This document shows positions 51,462 to 62,475 of a DNA stretch of 64,000 bases, one piece after another (the stretch's first letter is position 1; each line of letters opens with the position of its first letter). The position numbers were made by a program, and so were the translations under genes. The stretch is from Tubulanus polymorphus. Lineage: Eukaryota; Nemertea; Palaeonemertea; Tubulaniformes; Tubulanidae. The DNA lies in contig NC_134034.1 of assembly GCF_964204645.1 (NCBI RefSeq), positions 1,238,001 through 1,302,000 of the forward strand, given 5' to 3'. The notes below the pieces were generated by a model, which was given only the letters and a program-made list of their open reading frames with translations, was not told the origin of the DNA and searched no databases.

Positions 51462-51607
51462 ACGTGGGTTAAAATGGGCTCGCGACATCAATGCTGGCAC
51501 TCAATCTCACCATGTTGACATCGCACGCGCGCGCGAGGTCTTATCAGTAAGAGTTCGAAGACTGAGTGAGTTAACGCAGTCTATACTGCGAGAGTCGCTC
51601 CGTCATC
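51462..51607 (+). promoter_or_regulatory. ADGF-B proximal promoter / 5' UTR
   Basis: Counterpart of 23400-23545; see ADGF-A. The duplicated upstream block means both genes may share expression control. Confidence 0.65.
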
Positions 51608-54600
51608 ATGAACAACCTAGGATCTACAGCCACAATGATTTCATCGTGGGTATTTCTCTTACTAATACTGAGCCTACCGAACCCGGGCCTATCCCTGAGT
51701 CGAGTCGACTACCTGGCCCGGCGTAAGGCCGTCTTCGACGAGGAATTCTCGACTAGGATCGGGGCTAAATTGAAACTGAACGCGGCCGAAGCGTCCGTGA
51801 ATAAAATACTGATGGATGCCAAACGTAGCGAGATCGCGCAGGGTCTGGCAGACGGCAAATTCCCGCCGTCCAGACATTTTTTCTTGGCTCGAGACGATAT
51901 TGAAAAAAGTGCCGTTTTTAAAATCATCAAAATCATGCCGAAAGGTAAGGGTCACATTCTTATCTTTAAACCTTTTTTATACCTTTTTCAAAGAGCTTCT
52001 AGATTGTAGTGTTCTAGAAATCATTGATTAGAAAATGTCATTAAGAAATTTTTTTTCACTCAAAAATGCAATGAAATCTATTAAAATCATAGCGTTGTCA
52101 ATAAGTTTGTTCGGATTCAAATTTCACTGGTTTCGAACTTTCTAACTTGATCCAAATTGTACCTCTCTCCTCTCCTATCTCTCTCCCTCCCCTCGCTCTC
52201 TCTCGACTTTTTATTTCTCCATCTCTCTTTTAAGGAGCCATTCTGCACGCCCACGATTTGTCGATGCTAGACTTCCACGAGCTGATTAAGCTGGCCACAT
52301 ACTCACCTGATGTTTACATGTGTTTTACTAATGACGGCACATTACAGTTTAAATACATGAATAAACTGCCCGCTAAACCTGGTAAGAACGAATGTTTTAT
52401 TAGAAAAAAGAATATATCGAAAACTTTCAAAAGAACACCACGCCTCGTGAGAGAGAGTCCGAAAGATGACCTTCTTTCAAAACAACAGACCCCGATTTCA
52501 TAGAACAGGTATCAAAATGATCCTATAGTTGGATGCAGAAGCACCCAATGAAAACTTTGAGCTTTTCATGACCCCCCGTAAAAAGTATTGTGGGATGCGT
52601 AAATTGAATTACAGCAACAAGTCTGCAGTGTTCACGATCCTGAAATGTATAGCTCTAATTTAGATGAATTTTTTTAAGTATGGTGTTTATGATTTTACAG
52701 AATGCAGTTGGAGGAATGTAATGAAAGCTCGTGACGAGGCCGCCTCTCCGGAGGCGTTCGACAATATGTGAGTCATCTATTTGTGACAGGTTTAATTAGT
52801 AAAACTAGTCACCACACCTGACCGGCCACCAGTCACAGCACTGTCCAACACGTGACTGGTCACCTGCTACCACACTGTCCAGACAAACTTACAAGCTAAC
52901 TGTATCAAGCATGTATGGTCTGGTGGTTAGCATAGTTGGTTGGCATGCTTGTGGTCGCAGGTTCGAGTCCCGCTTTGGGTTGCCGACGACCTATGGTTTA
53001 TGGCTATTGGGTCGCAGATTCGGTTACGGTGAACCCAAAATCTAATCATCATTTTATCATTATCCCGTGACAGGAAATTTGAACGTATGAAGTAAATACT
53101 TTTTAATCAGTTAGAATCTGAAATATCGGCGATTCATTTTTATCGTTATTTGTTCGACATTTTGTTGATATTTTGATATTTTTATGAAAAATGATTCAAC
53201 GTTATCGCGCACCTGTTACAACAGGCCCGTTTCCTGTGATTAGAATAGATTATTCATAATCAGATCAATTAGTTGCTAAATTTTCCTTTTCACGTTATAA
53301 GTTTTTTACTCCTTTTTTTCTGAATTTATCAACCAACAGGTTGTATAAGAAAATTGGTGCCACATCAAGTTCGAATCCCGAGAATGCAATATAAATTTCA
53401 TTTCTATAATTTTCATAAGCATCACGCAGCTGTACAGAAAACCCGTTATCGTTGCTTTGCGGCTATATTTATTCTTTTCTCCTCGTTTTTCATAAGCATC
53501 ACGCTGCAATGCAGAAAACCCGTTATAGCTGCTTCGCGGCTATATTCATTCTTTTTTTCTTAATCAAATAACTGTCAGGTTGTATAAGAAAATGAGTTTG
53601 GAGACGCCCAACCCGCAGAAACTGTACCCGACGATAAACGCCGTCTGGAAGCGGTTTTTTAACGTGTTTCTATCGATTGGTGGATTGGTACATTACAAAC
53701 CGTTGACGGCTAAATTTCTGGAGGCCGCTTTCAAGTCAGCCGTGGAGGACAATGTGCAATACATGGAAGCGAGATCCCTTTTGACCAAGGTGAAAAATAT
53801 GAAAATACTTATAGAACTTTGGGTTTTCTTAACTTCTTGACTTTTACTTGTACTTACTGATAAGATACCGAAAACTGACCAGCTGCACAGTCATGTCTAA
53901 GTTCATTTTCGTTTTATAGTCAATACCAGTCTGAACTAACCTTGTTTCTAAAGCAAATCTAAAAATGTAAGATTTTTTGATTTAAGACACGAATGTGCAA
54001 CTTGGCCTACTCGGCTTCACGGCAATTATTCCTCACTTACTCGGTAGAATATTGGACCCAGTCCGACGGTTAAGAAAAATTACTATAATTCTAAATTTCC
54101 AGACTTATAACATCGACGGTTCGTTGAACAGTCGCGAGGAATCGTTGGACATTTTACGTTTAGCCACTCAGGAGTTTGTAAAAGATTACCCGAACGATTT
54201 CGCCGGGTTCAAGGTCATTGGCTCGGCGATTCGGTACGTAGCAGTCACGTGACCGACACGCGAATGATAAAGATTATTGATTTGCATATGAATTATTTTT
54301 CTCGTTATTTTTGAAATTGCAGAGCTCAAAACGCGTCGCTGATCGGTGACCGGGTGAAAGAGGCGATCCAATTCCGTCAGAAATACCCGTCGTTCTACGC
54401 CGGATTTGACTTGGTCGGTCAGGAGGACCCCGGACATTCGCTGCTCTATTTTCTCGATGATCTGTTATTACCGTCGCAGATGAACCCACCAGTCGATCTA
54501 CCGTACTTCTATCACGCCGGCGAGACCAGTAATCTAGTTACCTTCTCCCTATGACATCATCAAATAGACCCTTCTTTAACAGATCGTCTCCATAATCTTC

Positions 54601-55500
54601 TTATGACATCAAATTGTCTACTAGTGATTTAATCTATGGACACTTCTAGAACAGATATCTGCCACCATAAATCCCCCTATGACGTTATCAATGATACTGT
54701 TTTGTTTCAGATTGGACCGGGTAGGATGTCCGCCTCCATGAATCCCCTTATGACATCACCAATGATACTGTTTTATTTCAGATTGGAACGGGGAGGATGT
54801 CGATGATAATATGGTTGACGCTGTATTGTTGAATACGTCACGTGTTGGTCACGGGTTCGCCATACTTAAACATCCGTTCGTCGAGAAATCTATTCGAGAA
54901 AAACCGATCGCGGTCGAGTTAAATCCCGTGTCTAATCAGGTGAGAGAGGTAGAGAGAGGTAGAGAGAGATGGAGAGAGGGGGAGAGAGGGGGGAAGGTCG
55001 GAGACAGGTGAAGAGAGTTGCTGAGAGGTCGGCTCAATAAGTGTCTGAATTAAGGTGTATAAATATTTTGTAGGTGTTAAAACTGGTGGATGATTTAAGG
55101 AATCATCCGGCCTCGGCTTTATTCAGCACCGATTACCCGGTGGTCGTGTCTTCTGATGATCCAGCGATCTGGGGAGCTTTACCGCTATCTCACGACTTCT
55201 ACATGGCGTTCATGGGCTTCGCGTCTGCCGAGGACGACCTCAGATTGTTAAAACAACTAGCCATCAATTCGATAAAGTAAATAATATCCAAATATTAGAT
55301 TTAATATGAAATTAAATAGGCTAGATTTTTAACTAAATTTTGTCATCACTCTTGAAATTTCTCTTTTTCTAAACGTGCGCAGATACAGCGCAATGAGCGA
55401 TGAAGAGAAGGTCAACGCGTTTAGACTTTGGCAGACGAAATGGTCGCAATTCATAGACAAAGTTTTAGCTGAAAATCGCTTCAACCAACAAATTAACTGA
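51608..55500 (+). CDS. ADGF: Adenosine deaminase-related growth factor (ADGF/ADA2), copy B
   Basis: Nine exons: 51608-51944, 52235-52381, 52701-52767, 53579-53789, 54103-54233, 54323-54528, 54782-54939, 55074-55276, 55383-55500; 525 residues. Every exon has the same length as in copy A except the last. Signal peptide, HAHD, HAGE, VGHG and SSDDP motifs are all kept, so it too should be an active secreted deaminase. Differences from A include Ser to Leu next to HAHD, CLLTP to SLLTK at the exon 4 end, and QQIN at the C-terminus. Introns 1, 3, 6 and 7 carry the same microsatellites or repeats as A but shorter. Intron 6 has a partial duplicate of the exon 7 acceptor and first bases at about 54695-54740. 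Poly(A) signal at 55682-55687. Confidence 0.95.
52800..53030 (+). mobile_element. tRNA-derived SINE copy, ADGF-B intron 3
   Basis: A-box TGGTCTGGTGGTTAGCAT, B-box GGTTCGAGTCC, and the upstream CACACTGTCCAGACAAACTT. Same intron and same sense orientation as the copy in ADGF-A, so insertion probably predates the gene duplication. Confidence 0.85.
53395..53560 (+). repeat. ~77-bp repeat, ADGF-B intron 3
   Basis: Two units with ACAGAAAACCCGTTATCGCT-type sequence; counterpart of 20085-20310 in the other arm. Confidence 0.85.
54550..54765 (-). repeat. ~79-bp family, ADGF-B intron 6
   Basis: Two to three degenerate reverse-oriented units (CCTATGACATCATCAAAT, GCCACCATAAATCCCCCTAT). Confidence 0.85.
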
Positions 55501-56752
55501 AACAGATCACCACCGACACACCGACCCTCCATATAGCACAGAGATTCAGCAATATCAGAACGACATCGTCATTCGATGTACAAAAAAGTCTTATTTATTT
55601 TTCGACCGTTGAAAAAACAATTTATCTCCTTTTTGTGCAAGTGTCAATCATTTTTTTGTGTAATTAGCATATCGCATTTCGAATAAACCCCGCCCCGTAT
55701 TCATGACTAACTAGAAGATTTGTGCTTTGAAATGTATTCAAATATATATCATTTGCATCTCATTAATTTTTCTTCGCGTTTTTATTGTTGTTTTAAGGCT
55801 CGGAATTAGAAAGAGGTTTGCTGAACCAATTTCTAGTGGAGCAATTCATCCGATATCACCGTGCAGCTTAAAACTAAATTTATCTCTGCTTTCACAAAGT
55901 TGTAGTCAAAATTGTGGTCGTGGCAGATCTATCATATTGTAATCATCATTTTATGTGCTCCTATCCTCTGGTTGATCGTGCTCAAGACGAACTAACATAA
56001 TCCTTTCACGGACCACTCATGCGCAATCTATAGATTGACCGGAAAGGTCAGTTTTTGATTGTTCTGGTACAAAACAGTTTATGGCGCGTACGACAAAAGG
56101 TCACGTTATGACGTGTTGACGGTTCGGTGGACTCAGTTCTATACACGAGAATTTTACAATGAAACAACGGCAAGAATGAATGTTTTTCCTAGGAGAGACG
56201 CGTCGATACGCTCCATAGCCCGATTCCGGGCATACTCACTCATATATATTTCAGCCTGTTGCACATATTGATATTCATTTTATGTTCTGTGTACAAGAAA
56301 TTGATTAATTAATGACTCATTCACCTGATGAAGCTTCTAAACATTAGAAGCGAACGCTCGTGCGTCAAATAAATAGTTAACCCATACTAACCTAGTACTT
56401 CTCATCCCCTTGCTCATTTTAAACCAGGTTAACACGGCTACTCTACGAATATTCTCAAGAAATTCATTATATATAGTAAGATAATAATCATATCGAAATC
56501 GTCACAGTTCGTGGGCTTCGTGTCTGCTGAGGATGCAACTGAGGATTGTTAAAACAGCCATCAATTCGATAAAGCTCATTAGGTTTTAATTTTCTAAAGG
56601 GCGCTGTAGCAATGTAACCACATTCCGTTTGTCGGCTTCGAACGAAATTTACATTAAAAAAAAACATTTCATTATTTTTTCATCTAAAAGAAAATAATCA
56701 TTCGCTGAAAGCGGCTATCGACAAGGCTTTTGTGTCAAATACATTTATCAGC
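55501..56752. other. Outer part of arm B and spacer
   Basis: ADGF-B 3' UTR to about 55700, then 55800-56160 homologous in inverse orientation to 13150-13480 (shared TTCTGGTACAAAACAG, GGCGCGTACGACAAA). An ADGF exon 8 remnant is at 56510-56575. No coding exon seen. Confidence 0.6.
56510..56575 (+). pseudogene. ADGF exon 8 remnant, outer edge of arm B
   Basis: TGGGCTTCGTGTCTGCTGAG, then ATTGTTAAAACAGCCATCAA, TTCGATAAA match the end of ADGF exon 8 (55211-55276) with small deletions that break the frame. Flanking TCACAGTTC is shared with the remnant at 12888-12945. Confidence 0.75.
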
Positions 56753-56758
56753 TTTATT
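56753..56758 (-). terminator. Polyadenylation signal of the CW-PWWP-ARID gene
   Basis: AATAAA on the minus strand about 80 bp after the stop codon at 56837. Confidence 0.6.
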
Positions 56759-56836
56759 TGATCGTTAGAAAAAATATCAAACGTTTAAAACTAACATCTT
56801 CAAAAATCTACGACACAACATTTTTTCGCTCAATAT

Positions 56837-59800
56837 TCATAACATCGCGAAATCGAGGTCGACCTCCAATTTGTCGATGTCATCTTCTAACGCCTGCATC
56901 ACGTGATAGAAATTTGAATTCGAATCTTGTGACGTCGTAGTATGGCAGTTAGTGTGCGCTGAAGGAAAAGATAACAACAACAACAATGAATCAGATACTT
57001 TTGTATATGTGAATATATAACTGCCAAATTTGGAATTTTACTGGACCATGGGTTTAGATCCAGATCCCAGCACAAAGAGCACGTGATTCCGCCGAGATTT
57101 TCCAGCGGCTTCCCCCCTATTACCCCCCCCCCACTATTGCGAATATTTACGCTGATGTAGCAGACGACTGAATTCCAGAGTTGTATCGGTTTCAATCGCC
57201 GATTGTTGGGACGATGGCACCGGACTGTCGTCGTGGTAACAGATTTTCACGTGTTGATTCCGTTCAGCGCCGGTGGTGGCGCACCTAGCCGCGTTACGGC
57301 AATCGGTTTCCATCGTTTCCAGCTCGACCAACATTTCATCAAGGTCGACATCGCTAAGGTCAAGGGCGTTGGCCTTATCTGATAAATAAACAAGTTTGAT
57401 ACAAAAATCAGGTTCAACTTGTTTTAGACTCAAAGATTGATATCTTGTTTCTCTCGTTTCAGCTGAGCTTAAGACTGACCCAGCCGGTAACCTATTTATA
57501 TACCCATACTACCAAACTTACAATAACAGACCAGGCAGTTATAGAAATGAACTGATTACAAATTTCATTGCAGTTTACAAAATTACGCGGCCGATTAGGA
57601 GGAACGTGGAATTATTTCATTTCAACCGTAAAATCATAAAGTTTTTTCTTTTTTAAACTAAGATTTCGAAACTAGTATCACTAGGAGAACTACCCACCGA
57701 AGTTCTCTTCCTGTTCCGCTTCACCCGCCGCCTGCCTGCTTCCCAATCTGCTGCTGACGTCATCATCTACGTCACTAGTCTCGGTCAACGTGTATCGACG
57801 TTCAGTCAGGTATCGTTCGTACGCCAATAGGTGGCGTGTGTAGCATACTTTGACCGCGTGACCGCGACCCGGTTGAGTAGATCCGGTCAGTAGGTTGAAT
57901 ATCTTACTCCAGCCTCTGTTCTCAGTGACCTAGATTTACAAATTCGAAATGAAATATCGGAGTCAGGTACCGGTAAATGCTACTATGGCAAGTGAGGATC
58001 TACCAGGTGTCGCTAGTTCGCAGTAGGACATCAACTACTGCGGGAATTGAGGATTCGACTCGTGGCAAGTGAGGATTCACCAGGTGTCGCTAGTGTGTAG
58101 TAGGACATCAACTACTGCGACAATAGAGGATTCGACTCGTGGCAAGTGAGGATTCACCAGGTGTCGCTAGTGTGCAGTAGGACATCAACTACTGCGACAA
58201 TAGAGGATTCCACTCATGGCAAGTGAGGATTCACCAGGTGTCGTTAGTGTGCAGTAGGACATCAACTACTGCGACTATTGAGGATTCAACTTGTGCAAGT
58301 GGGGACAAGCTAGTAGTTGGTCAGCTATCCGAACTTAGTCGATAGGTACCCTGAAGGGTGATGGAAGATGCCCTTACCTTACTGTAACCCCCTCTATCAA
58401 CGACCAGTAAAAACAGTTGACACAAACTGATATCTCGATTCTGCCATTTCGGCGGCGTGTGGTTCGTTCTGAAACCGCGTCTAGTGCTGAATCTCTGTAG
58501 ATCATGTTTGAACGCTTGTTCGTTGTTGCGGTAACTCTGCAGCGGCGGTGGAAATATTGAAAATGATTATTTACTAAGTGTAACGTTTCGTATGAAATAC
58601 GTCGAGCAATTATTTCACCTGAATGTTGATGGTTGAAATTTGAGTTGAGTTTTCCTCTCCGTCTTTCGTCTGCCCAAGAGGGGACCAGTCTGTCGTCTTC
58701 TCGCTTGGAAGCCCGTCTCTGGTTTGCCCACTCGGGAACCAGTCTCTCGTCTGCTCACTTGGGAACCCGTCTTTCGTCTGCCCACTCGGGAACCCGTTTC
58801 TCATCTGCCCACTCGGAAACCCGTCTCTCATCTGCCCACTCAGGTCCAGCCCTTCAGTTCTCTGCCCGTTCAGCTCGACTGCCAGCGCCTGTTCCGATGA
58901 TGATCTTGCCGCTTCAGATTCATCTTCATACGGATTTTCTGGAAAAAAAAACGATATGCTTTGACCAAAAGGGCTTTAGCTCCCACTAATACAAATCAAT
59001 TTCTGGATACCTTTGAAGATGGTTTTGTCTAATCGTTCTTCCGTTGACAAATCGATCCACGATTCTGCCTCTTTCATTGCGCTGTCAACTTTCTGTTTTT
59101 TATAGGTCTGTTTGCTTCTTAATTTACGTCTGCCCTAAATAAATAAATGCGAAAGAACCGAACCGAACTCATCATCACAAATCAAAAGAACACAACATTG
59201 AACTTTCTCCTTAATGCGGTTCCTGGGCTTTTTACTACCACAAACAACCGCTGATAGTTCAAGACTTACCGCTAATGATTTCTCAGAAATCGGCGCTATT
59301 TTTCCGTAGGGTTCCACGTTTTTCGCAGTAACCCAACCATGAGTGTGCGGCTCGCCGAAATATTCCACGTGATACCAACGAGGAGTCCCGCCCACCAGAG
59401 TGACTGACAGGTCACAGGCCGGGTCCGGGCTGATTATTGCTGGCCATCTGAAAAAAAATATAGAGCCGATGAAAAAGTTTCAAGTTATGAGAGGGAGCGA
59501 GTGGAGGGCTCAGAGATTCACGATAGTTCCCCGATTTCTTTATCTTAAAATAAGGGATTGACCCTGTTAATTATTTGATTGGTAGATTGTTAGGTTGTTA
59601 TGATTTGGTGTCCCTTACAGGCCCACCATTCTTGCCGGGAACGAAACATGGGGTTTGATCATTTGAAATCGGAAATCGTAGTACAGATGAAACAGTTTTG
59701 TGATCGGCGGTCGATTTTACAGGGATTCAGTTCCACAGTTGTGAGTCAGAGTTAACTCTGAGTTAAAGTATGTTCATTTTCAATGAGTTAACCCAGAGAC

Positions 59801-61130
59801 AAATCTTAACTCAGAACTGTGGAACTGGACCCTGAAGTTCACCCATTACTTACTTGCAGTAACCGGTCATTTTAGCCCAGACGATCGTCCCTGCCGCTAG
59901 AACCGACTCGACGTATCTCAATCCACATCGTTTCATCAGTTTCTCGTAGACAGAGAAATCATCCTCCGCGCAGTCGCACGAGTTACGTGTCGAGTCTGGA
60001 TTCATCCGACAGAACCAGCGGTCATCGTCTGCCAATCCGGCCGCCGTCGAGCTGCATATACGCCGCCATTTGTGACAGTTCGTATCGTCGCATTGGATCC
60101 AAGTTTCATCGGCTAACTGAAATATTAAGTACGCAGGAGATACTATCAATCGCTAAGTCCCGACCATCGTGACTAGACTTCCTACGAAGGAGTGGTAAAT
60201 TCTATTGGCTCGTGAAACTAAGGTGTGAGACCCAGGACCCACTTCCACGAGATCGAGCACAAGACTTCGTCTCAAGATTAATAGTTTACCGTTAACTTAT
60301 AGAAAATGCAATTTCGAATCAAACCGACAAACGAAACTAATATTAGTCGTACTCGGTTTCAGTTCAACAGCTCGGAGTTCTAAGTCCTGTTTAAAAGACC
60401 TGTTTTAACTTTGGAACCCACGAAAAACACACGGGTATTCATTGTGACCTACGTACCACACATGACCGGTCACCGAAGTCACCACACTGTCACTGACCAG
60501 ACAAACTTACTAACTGAGAGTGAGGCAGACACAGTCTGGTCTATGGTCTAGTGGTTAGCATGCTCGGCTGTCGTGCTGGATGTCGCAGGTTCAAGTCCTG
60601 CTAGGGTTAGGGTTGTGAGCGAGCTAGGGTATAGGATTGTATAGCATTTGGCAAACTCAAATGGCTGAATGCTGGGCACTGGGGCCCAGATTTTTTCTTT
60701 TATTCTCATTTGCAGCTTAATTGTTCAATTCAACTAATTAGCCCACTGGTTACGTGGGTTTGGGCTACTGTGAGCCTCCAACCGTGTTTCAGAGACTAAA
60801 ACCTACCCTTTTAATCAGTTCATCGCGATTAGTTTTTGACATTCCTAAAAGAGGTTCGGTTTTTCGTCCATTCTTTTTGCGTGAATCAGTTACAAAACCG
60901 CTTAAAGGTATTGGCGACTGTCTCTTTCTTCGATTCGGGAGTGATTTCAGGGGCATTTTTGGGCCTTTAGCTTCATCGTCGGTGATCTGAGACGTGGGAC
61001 CTGGGCCGGGCCCTGCTGCTGGGCAGGTAGTAAGGCGTTGAGATAAAACATTAGCGATAAGCTCAATTTTAGAGCCGCCTCCGTGTTGTTGTTGCGCAAC
61101 CTTCGGAATCGATGGCGATTCGTCCGACAT
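56837..61130 (-). CDS. CW zinc finger + PWWP + ARID chromatin reader (ZCWPW-like)
   Basis: Nine exons (minus): 60807-61130, 59854-60116, 59270-59447, 59011-59134, 58619-58938, 58378-58536, 57698-57929, 57151-57378, 56837-56958; 649 residues. Residues 1-108 are basic and disordered. CW finger about 112-157: WIQCDDTNCHKWRR with Zn ligands C117, C122, C144 and C155, plus W114, W125 and W142; CW domains bind H3K4 methyl marks. PWWP about 183-250: GTIVWAKMTGYCKWPA, WYHVEYFG, HGWV; PWWP domains bind H3K36 methyl marks. Next a decapeptide repeat region (about 330-400). ARID about 404-500: FKHDLQRF, RGFRTNHTPP, ISLCQLFLLVVDRGGY, GWSKI, HLLAYERYL, a DNA-binding fold. Acidic tail (LDLSDVDLDEML). CW then PWWP is the ZCWPW1/2 layout; ARID is not known to me in that family. 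Exons 5 to 7 join in phase, so the three domains are one gene by splice logic, but no transcript confirms it. Confidence 0.85.
57470..57660. repeat. Diverged copy of the 62830 MITE family
   Basis: Shares TATAGAAATGAACTGATTAC, AAATTTCATTGCAGTTTACA-type sequence and GCGGCCG with 62930-63030. Ends are not recognisable. Confidence 0.5.
57985..58292 (-). repeat. 77-bp tandem array in CW-PWWP-ARID intron 6
   Basis: Four units of GGCAAGTGAGGATTCACCAG, GTGTCGCTAGTGTGCAGTAG, GACATCAACTACTGCGACAA; reverse of the family at 1690-2060 and 43690-44010. Confidence 0.95.
60460..60700 (+). mobile_element. tRNA-derived SINE copy in CW-PWWP-ARID intron 1
   Basis: CACCACACTGTCACTGACCA, GACAAACTTACTAACTG, A-box TGGTCTAGTGGTTAGCATGC, B-box-like GGTTCAAGTCC. 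Longer 3' tail than the ADGF copies. Confidence 0.82.
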
Positions 61131-62475
61131 CTTAATTGTGCAAAACCTATGCAGATTTATGGAATTATCCGGATTAAGACGGATTAAAGAATTGATTAGG
61201 GTTCTTCACACATGGCTGACTTCTACCTATAGCCACGTGGTGAACTACGATACGCCAGATCGCGGGTTCGAATCCTGAATTACCGTCGGAAATACGGAAG
61301 CTCTGAAGGACAAACTACTTCAAGCGCAATGCTTATCGATGCTTATCGTATAATCTTGCTTGATCGTTATTTGAGAAATAAGGGTCCTAGAAATAATGAA
61401 TGTTTAGCGGTTATTAGTAGTGGGATTCGGCCCTACATTCAAAATTGCATAAATTGAACGTAGCGCATAGTGTCTCAATGTTCTGAATTAAATAATTATA
61501 CGAATGCAATGCTTTTAGTTTTATTATATAAAAGAGTGTACAAAAAAATCATAAAATCTACAAAATATTTTTCATGCGCGGTTTAACTAAACGAATATTA
61601 CGGGATTCGAGCCCACAAATGCGGAAGCAAATCTCTCAATGCGGAAGTAAAAAAAAAAACAACAAAATTTGCAATTTTGTTCATGTCTTGTAAGTCTTAT
61701 TTTTTCGACCCTGCTGATTCATTCATCGTTCGCTTGAAAGGTTCCAAATAGCTGGGGAGGTTCAAGCAGTAAAGCCTCACAAAATATCGGCTCACTGCCT
61801 TATGGCCTAACCTAAAGCAACAAAACTGGGAAAACGTTTGCCCTACTCATCTCATTCTCAAGAAGGCTCAAGGTTCATTTGTTTTACTATGAATGACTGC
61901 AGTTTAGGTCGGAGTTTTATGTACTTACCATGAACGATCTTAGTGAAGTTTTTGGGTGAATGAATAGTAGCTTAGAATCTAGGAATTTTACAATCCAAAT
62001 TCGCCTACAAACCCGCACCATAGTCACCACACCTGCCGGGAATGGAATGGTTGGTTTGATCTTTCGAAATCGGAAATCGAAGTACAGATATAGTTGTGTC
62101 ATCAGCGGCTGAATTAACGGAATTTGTCGCAACCAGTACCTAACCTAACCCTAAATCCTTCACTATTGCAACACGACCTAAAACATGACCCTCATCCTTC
62201 ATTATTCACTAGTGCCACAATTTTCGAAGGCGACCTTCAAGTTAAACTGCAATTAGTCATAATTGTCAGTACAATTTCAGGCAAAATGCTCTATCTATGT
62301 TTCAGGGATAGACAGGGAAGTTAAAGATCATGATGAAAATCTACTAAAAGCCGAATTTGTATAAATTGCGAAGACCGTCTCGGGCGGAGTTAGTCTAGTA
62401 TCTAGCCGTTGTTCCCAAATAAGTTGCAGTAGGGGAACCGTCTGATATTCAGCGGACTGTGCCGAGTATTACAAG
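61131..62475. other. Divergent intergenic region
   Basis: Between the CW-PWWP-ARID start and the acid phosphatase start. It holds a degraded tRNA-like stretch at 61220-61285 with a B box (GGGTTCGAATCC) but no foldable full tRNA that I can support. AT-rich otherwise; no coding exon recognised. Confidence 0.5.

Follow-up and report, generated by a model that had tools for sequence, protein, structure and literature searches.

ZCWPW1 and ZCWPW2, so far studied as vertebrate partners of PRDM9, are both coupled to it across vertebrates (PMC8892340), and ZCWPW2 is described there as a zf-CW plus PWWP protein, with no ARID mentioned in that text. For vertebrate ZCWPW1, SCP1-like and MBD-like regions are described as possible, and in the same source ZCWPW2 is stated, with a citation of Liu et al. 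2016, to recognise H3K4me3 (PMC7494361). A zf-CW plus PWWP protein of Nematostella is placed in the ZCWPW1 clade, in a text that names no ARID (PMC3457860), and the two-domain ZCWPW family is therefore older than bilaterians. PWWP and ARID are found together in ARID4A and ARID4B, which carry Tudor, chromobarrel and R2 domains as well, five domains in all, and no CW (PMC8038949); in human chromatin domain pairs ARID is accompanied by JmjC, JmjN and PHD, and zf-CW is not mentioned (PMC2993927). In a 64,000-nucleotide stretch of the genome of the nemertean Tubulanus polymorphus (NC_134034.1, positions 1,238,001 to 1,302,000 of the forward strand; hereafter the window, with positions counted from its first letter), a minus-strand gene was found to encode CW, PWWP and ARID domains in one predicted protein. 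The gene is interpreted as a ZCWPW2-like gene with an added ARID, whose product would serve as a germline reader of H3K4me3 and H3K36me3 that the ARID anchors to DNA, and the chances that this sequence-based interpretation is right are judged to be even. No CW-PWWP-ARID protein was found, by title and start of abstract, among the papers listed in searches of the open-licence literature, where absence is not absence in print; these searches covered papers rather than eukaryotic sequence collections, and the architecture may already be present among the automatic annotations of public databases.

The gene starts with an ATG at 61130, closes with a TGA whose last base is 56837 and has nine exons, and its spliced reading frame, assembled from genomic DNA, comprises 1950 bases and 649 residues, reproducing exactly the protein length given in an earlier annotation made without database searches (the sequence-only reading). 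That annotation had also proposed that the three domains are joined in one gene with the ARID on exons 6-7, and both proposals are supported by a Pfam scan of the 649-residue protein at E up to 1, in which three families were reported, each above its curated cut-off. The domains, exons and a possible polyadenylation signal are as follows.

59961..60104, minus strand: zf-CW, residues 113-160; Pfam 46.9 bits (cut-off 27.5), E 2.8e-12
59054..59891, minus strand: PWWP, residues 184-282, exons 2-4; Pfam 55.0 bits (cut-off 25.6), E 1.2e-14
57816..58521, minus strand: ARID, residues 409-494, exons 6-7; Pfam 57.7 bits (cut-off 24.1), E 1.6e-15
60807..61130, minus strand: exon 1, with the start codon and the N-terminal part, residues 1-108, no Pfam domain (gene model, Pfam)
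59854..60116, minus strand: exon 2, encoding the CW finger and the first part of the PWWP, residues 109-195 (gene model, Pfam, zf-CW profile)
59270..59447, minus strand: exon 3, remaining PWWP core, residues 196-255 (gene model, PWWP profile)
59011..59134, minus strand: exon 4, stretch beyond PWWP that aligns with the paralogue on contig C26, residues 256-296 (gene model, alignment)
58619..58938, minus strand: exon 5, acidic linker containing repeats of 27 bp, residues 297-403 (gene model, repeat analysis)
58378..58536, minus strand: exon 6, first half of ARID, residues 404-456 (gene model, Pfam)
57698..57929, minus strand: exon 7, second half of ARID, residues 457-533 (gene model, Pfam)
57151..57378, minus strand: exon 8, acidic C-terminal region, residues 534-609 (gene model)
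56837..56958, minus strand: exon 9, acidic end of the protein with the TGA stop, residues 610-649 (gene model)
56753..56758, minus strand: AATAAA, possible polyadenylation signal, 78 bases beyond the stop codon (motif search)

The E-values of the three domains, all of which score above their cut-offs, exclude chance matches. In profile searches the PWWP scored 28.8 bits from exon 3 alone vs 55.0 bits when spliced, and the ARID 33.6 bits from exon 6 alone vs 57.7 bits when spliced; because the joined scores exceed those of single exons, the splices within both domains are supported. The ARID match spans positions 2-89 of the 89 in the Pfam profile, and the PWWP lies directly after the CW, as in the ZCWPW family. 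Neither Tudor, chromobarrel nor SET was among the Pfam families reported for the protein at this threshold. The net charge is +8 for the ARID and -22 for the C-terminal region. Every intron has GT-AG borders and the phases agree throughout, which is weak evidence because the splice sites were picked to fit the model; introns 1 to 8 measure 690, 406, 135, 72, 82, 448, 319 and 192 bp.

Each domain was likened to known proteins by sequence match against solved structures. The best match of the window CW was human ZCWPW2 (52.0 bits), followed by ZCWPW1 (36.2), plant ASHH2 (33.6) and MORC3 (31.1), and on these matches the CW-PWWP body is that of a ZCWPW family member. The sequence-only reading had compared the protein with ZCWPW1, a comparison that needs amending: the CW is closer to ZCWPW2, its best solved match, and is followed by PWWP in the same order. 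Like that of ZCWPW2, the window CW ends in F, where ZCWPW1 and the C26 paralogue have W, and it is one residue longer than theirs. The protein departs from the described vertebrate ZCWPW members, whose recognised reader domains are CW and PWWP alone (a trait that does not formally define the family), in that an ARID is also present at 57.7 bits, and because of this addition it is called a ZCWPW variant.

The main H3K4me3-binding residues of human ZCWPW1 are W256, E301, T302 and W303, and in mouse ZCWPW1 the CW residues are required for chromatin binding and meiosis (PMC7314539). In the window protein, W114 and F162 (just after the zf-CW match) align with W256 and W303, so that by alignment alone the aromatic residues at both ends of the predicted CW binding site are retained, and positions 301 and 302 are D and D; human ZCWPW2 has W, E, D and F at the four positions. 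The PWWP core reads GYCKWPA, with EYFG further on, and its aromatic residues are W188 in VWAK, Y194 and W197 in GYCKWP, and F226 in EYFG, some of which would form the H3K36me3 cage. Within the best 60 of 64 solved matches, the PWWP was closest to NSD3, NSD2 and MSH6, and the first PWWP of NSD2 and NSD3, at 35 bits, is the nearest solved PWWP among the matches listed; NSD proteins carry a SET domain, unlike the window protein as scanned with Pfam.

A second CW-PWWP gene was located when the genome was searched with the zf-CW profile, which matched 5 of the 6 candidates scored. It lies on the 118-kb contig C26 (C26:54000-73900; L006, L007), has a long last exon, and was assembled as 653 residues from the CW onward, in which zf-CW and PWWP passed their Pfam cut-offs and no ARID was reported; the ARID profile search of the genome likewise gave no match anywhere on C26. 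Its CW matched the solved structure of ZCWPW1 at 47.4 bits and that of ZCWPW2 at 39.0 bits, and by its CW sequence the gene is ZCWPW1-like. The CW-PWWP body is common to the window protein, ZCWPW1 and the C26 gene. The window and C26 bodies are 29% identical in an alignment of 187 residues that includes the stretch beyond the PWWP, and two intron places are common to both, one before the WP motif of the PWWP (phase 2) and one after the PWWP core (phase 0), with one extra intron inside the PWWP of the C26 gene. Repeats of 228 bp (92%) and 95 bp (98%) are common to C26 and the window, and C26 is therefore probably no foreign contig.

A candidate writer of the two marks was found in the same genome on C12 (C12:427000-436999, minus strand, L050). 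When the genome was queried with the SET region of human PRDM9, 10 of 13 scored candidates matched, and C12, whose SET region is interrupted by introns and was scored there one exon at a time, ranked fourth; once joined, its three SET exons matched PRDM9 structures at 143 to 146.1 bits vs 93.1 bits for the next PR protein, PRDM11. Six C2H2 fingers stand in a row in the gene, and two neighbouring finger units have a 79-bp exact run in common at a lag of 84 bp, which points to a recent duplication in the array. On these matches the C12 gene is PRDM9-like. An upstream exon resembles the KRAB region of PRDM9 by eye, but Pfam did not report KRAB in the gene. Ancestral KRAB sequences are reported in invertebrates, for example in sea urchin (PMC8835667). 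The catalytic PRDM9 tyrosines named in PMC7237205 are Y276, Y341 and Y357. All three are kept in the C12 gene under the numbering offset applied, by which all three positions fall on Y in human.

According to the literature, PRDM9 arose before vertebrates (PMC8892340), a testis-specific PRDM9 occurs in a clam (PMC9716669), and in oyster Prdm9 and Zcwpw2 are both high in the male gonad and low in the female, no ARID being mentioned in that text (PMC12111275). The oyster report means that the name ZCWPW2 already exists in a mollusc (PMC12111275). From sequence we infer that the window protein would bind histones and DNA, be expressed in the germ line and be linked to PRDM9, acting in meiosis at the sites that PRDM9 marks, and the germline role is strengthened by the PRDM9-like gene in this genome and by the oyster male-gonad expression (PMC12111275). 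In the proposed mechanism the PRDM9-like methyltransferase would mark sites with H3K4me3 and H3K36me3 in germ cells, the CW finger would grip H3K4me3 and the PWWP H3K36me3, and the basic ARID, carried on an acidic, repeat-bearing linker, would hold nearby DNA and so lengthen or direct binding, while the acidic tail may recruit partners. A PRDM9-like writer accompanied outside vertebrates by a ZCWPW1-like reader and an ARID-bearing ZCWPW2-like reader would push the ZCWPW1/ZCWPW2 pair back in time, and would offer a case in nature for asking whether a reader, like PRDM9, can have DNA contact built in. The presence of the writer with both ZCWPW arms in one genome may be of more importance than the ARID itself. 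A broader proposal, made tentatively and with clearly less than even confidence, is that PRDM9 readers with ZCWPW1-like and ZCWPW2-like arms predate vertebrates, the ZCWPW2 arm being here a three-part reader with DNA recognition by the ARID, so that DNA contact would act together with the two histone marks in choosing or holding recombination sites. The ARID may have been lost by vertebrate ZCWPW2, or gained in this lineage.

Several observations weigh against a ZCWPW2-like germline reader. In a four-sequence likelihood test of the CW (50 columns), the pairing of the window CW with ZCWPW2 and of the C26 CW with ZCWPW1 was favoured by 6.6 log units with a resampling weight of 0.917, but over these 50 columns the alternative groupings were not rejected at 5% (approximately unbiased (AU) test, p 0.114 and 0.087). 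With MORC3 and ASHH2 added, the six-sequence CW tree placed the window CW beside plant ASHH2 with a support of 42, this pair sitting inside a group with ZCWPW2 that had a support of 60. Because the quartet alternatives stand and ASHH2 adjoins the window CW in the tree, the gene is named ZCWPW2-like and is not proven to be ZCWPW2; the choice between ZCWPW1 and ZCWPW2 turns on few sites. E301 of human ZCWPW1 is replaced by D in the window protein, and the C-K of its PWWP corresponds to P-W in the C26 paralogue. Being divergent, the ARID may fail to bind DNA. As to the writer, three other places (C5, C2 and C1) outscored C12 in the SET search of the genome, of which C5, the one tested back, is PRDM14-like; Pfam reported no KRAB in the C12 gene; and the SSXRD profile search of the genome gave no match, its control being silent too.

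The alternative that survives best is that the three-domain protein acts in ordinary transcription, reading H3K4me3/H3K36me3 nucleosomes at active genes in many tissues independently of PRDM9, with the ARID used for AT-rich or non-specific DNA contact. The marks read by CW and PWWP are general features of active genes, most ARID proteins regulate transcription, and the strongly acidic C-terminal region (net -22) would suit such a role. The nearest solved relatives of the CW, however, are ZCWPW2 and ZCWPW1, whose presence follows PRDM9 in vertebrates (PMC8892340), and a PRDM9-like gene is present in the same genome. A purely transcriptional role is considered rather unlikely.

The next alternative concerns the origin and state of the ARID. 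Against solved structures the window ARID scored 26.8 bits with ARID4A, 26.1 with ARID5B, 24.4 with KDM5A, 24.0 with SWI1 and 23.1 with ARID1B; an unnamed ARID protein also matched at 26.1 bits, and more classes followed lower. The seven common animal ARID classes are ARID1 to ARID5, KDM5 and JARID2, and no single one of them was clearly best. In the sole control run in this way, the genome's own ARID1 matched ARID1B at 88.8 bits, with ARID3 (Dead ringer) the next class at 71.9 bits. Of 9 candidates scored across the genome, 7 matched the ARID profile, one of them in the window, and a separate ARID5 was found only by the human ARID5B query (69% identity over 39 residues). The genes for ARID2, ARID3, ARID4, KDM5 and JARID2 were assigned by eye from known features and are probably present, the ARID4 assignment resting on a separate ARID4-like exon that matched the ARID profile elsewhere in the genome. 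As the seven common classes thus occur elsewhere, five of them assigned by eye, the window ARID would be an eighth, divergent one. A takeover from an existing ARID gene is disfavoured. ARID4A matches the window protein solely through its ARID (best stretch, among the best 60 of 64 solved matches).

It could be that this ARID copy has degenerated and persists as a protein-interaction or structural module without DNA contact, and that the protein is an ordinary CW-PWWP dual reader. The weak and even matches to the five named solved classes, from 26.8 down to 23.1 bits, speak for degeneration, as does the contrast with the genome's own ARID1, but a Pfam match at 57.7 bits over positions 2-89 of 89 and a domain net charge of +8 speak against it, and degeneration is judged improbable.

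The possibility of two genes bears on exon 5, which joins the CW-PWWP and ARID modules through introns 4 and 5 of only 72 and 82 bp. The ARID frame has no ATG in either exon 6 or exon 7, and none in the 11 codons that separate exon 6 from an upstream stop at 58569. On the gene strand, AATAAA or ATTAAA occurs within 56201-61200 at 56585 and 56753 (beyond the stop), 60699 (intron 1) and 60810 (exon 1), and none was found between 56837 and 60698. The short introns, the missing ATG and the missing polyadenylation signal from exon 2 to the stop make two genes unlikely. The sequence-only reading had based the fusion on in-phase splice sites; the in-phase model holds and no sign of a second gene was seen in the DNA, but phase alone is weak evidence. 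Intron 5 is the weakest splice, with the donor GTGAAA and the sequence CCACCGCCGCTGCAG next to an acceptor that has no long T-rich tract adjoining the AG. Past exon 5 the frame stays open for two more codons before it reaches a stop, so that retention of intron 5 would give a 405-residue CW-PWWP protein lacking the ARID, and joint skipping of exons 4 and 5 would, by the phases, hold the frame and bring the PWWP close to the ARID; isoforms are therefore possible. Two genes or two main isoforms, with the CW-PWWP protein terminating within or beyond exon 5 and the ARID exons on a transcript of their own, are very improbable, since the donor and acceptor of intron 5 and the 405-residue product of its retention are set against an intron of just 82 bp, an ARID frame with no ATG, and the lack of AATAAA/ATTAAA between exon 2 and the stop.

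Exon 5 contains a tandem repeat (58659-58841) with a period of 27 bp, 6.8 copies and 77% matches, and because this period is a multiple of three the reading frame of the linker is kept. Another tandem repeat occupies intron 6 (57986-58305), with a period of 77 bp, 4.2 copies and 92% matches. The sole other strong match of exon 1 lies at C3:21818311-21818562 (minus strand, L022), where 285 columns are 81% identical to the end of exon 1 plus 26 bp of intron 1. A retrocopy was rejected, and the C3 copy is regarded as a stray genomic duplicate, because it runs into intron 1 and contains a stop and indels. An AlphaFold2 model built from exon 2 aligned with the C26 exon had a mean predicted local distance difference test (pLDDT) score of 46.0 and was not used. 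Mitochondrial COX1 had no match in the assembly, while the control of that search performed well. Neighbouring genes were seen on the plus strand on both sides. A gene start from 62477 onward is by eye histidine acid phosphatase-like (VWRHGDRAP), with no Pfam match in the 41 residues scanned. An adenosine deaminase-like gene, ADA2/ADGF-like by eye, lies at 51575-55500; one of its frames matches Pfam A_deaminase_N at 61.5 bits, and a later piece reaches A_deaminase below cut-off (19.5 vs 27 bits).

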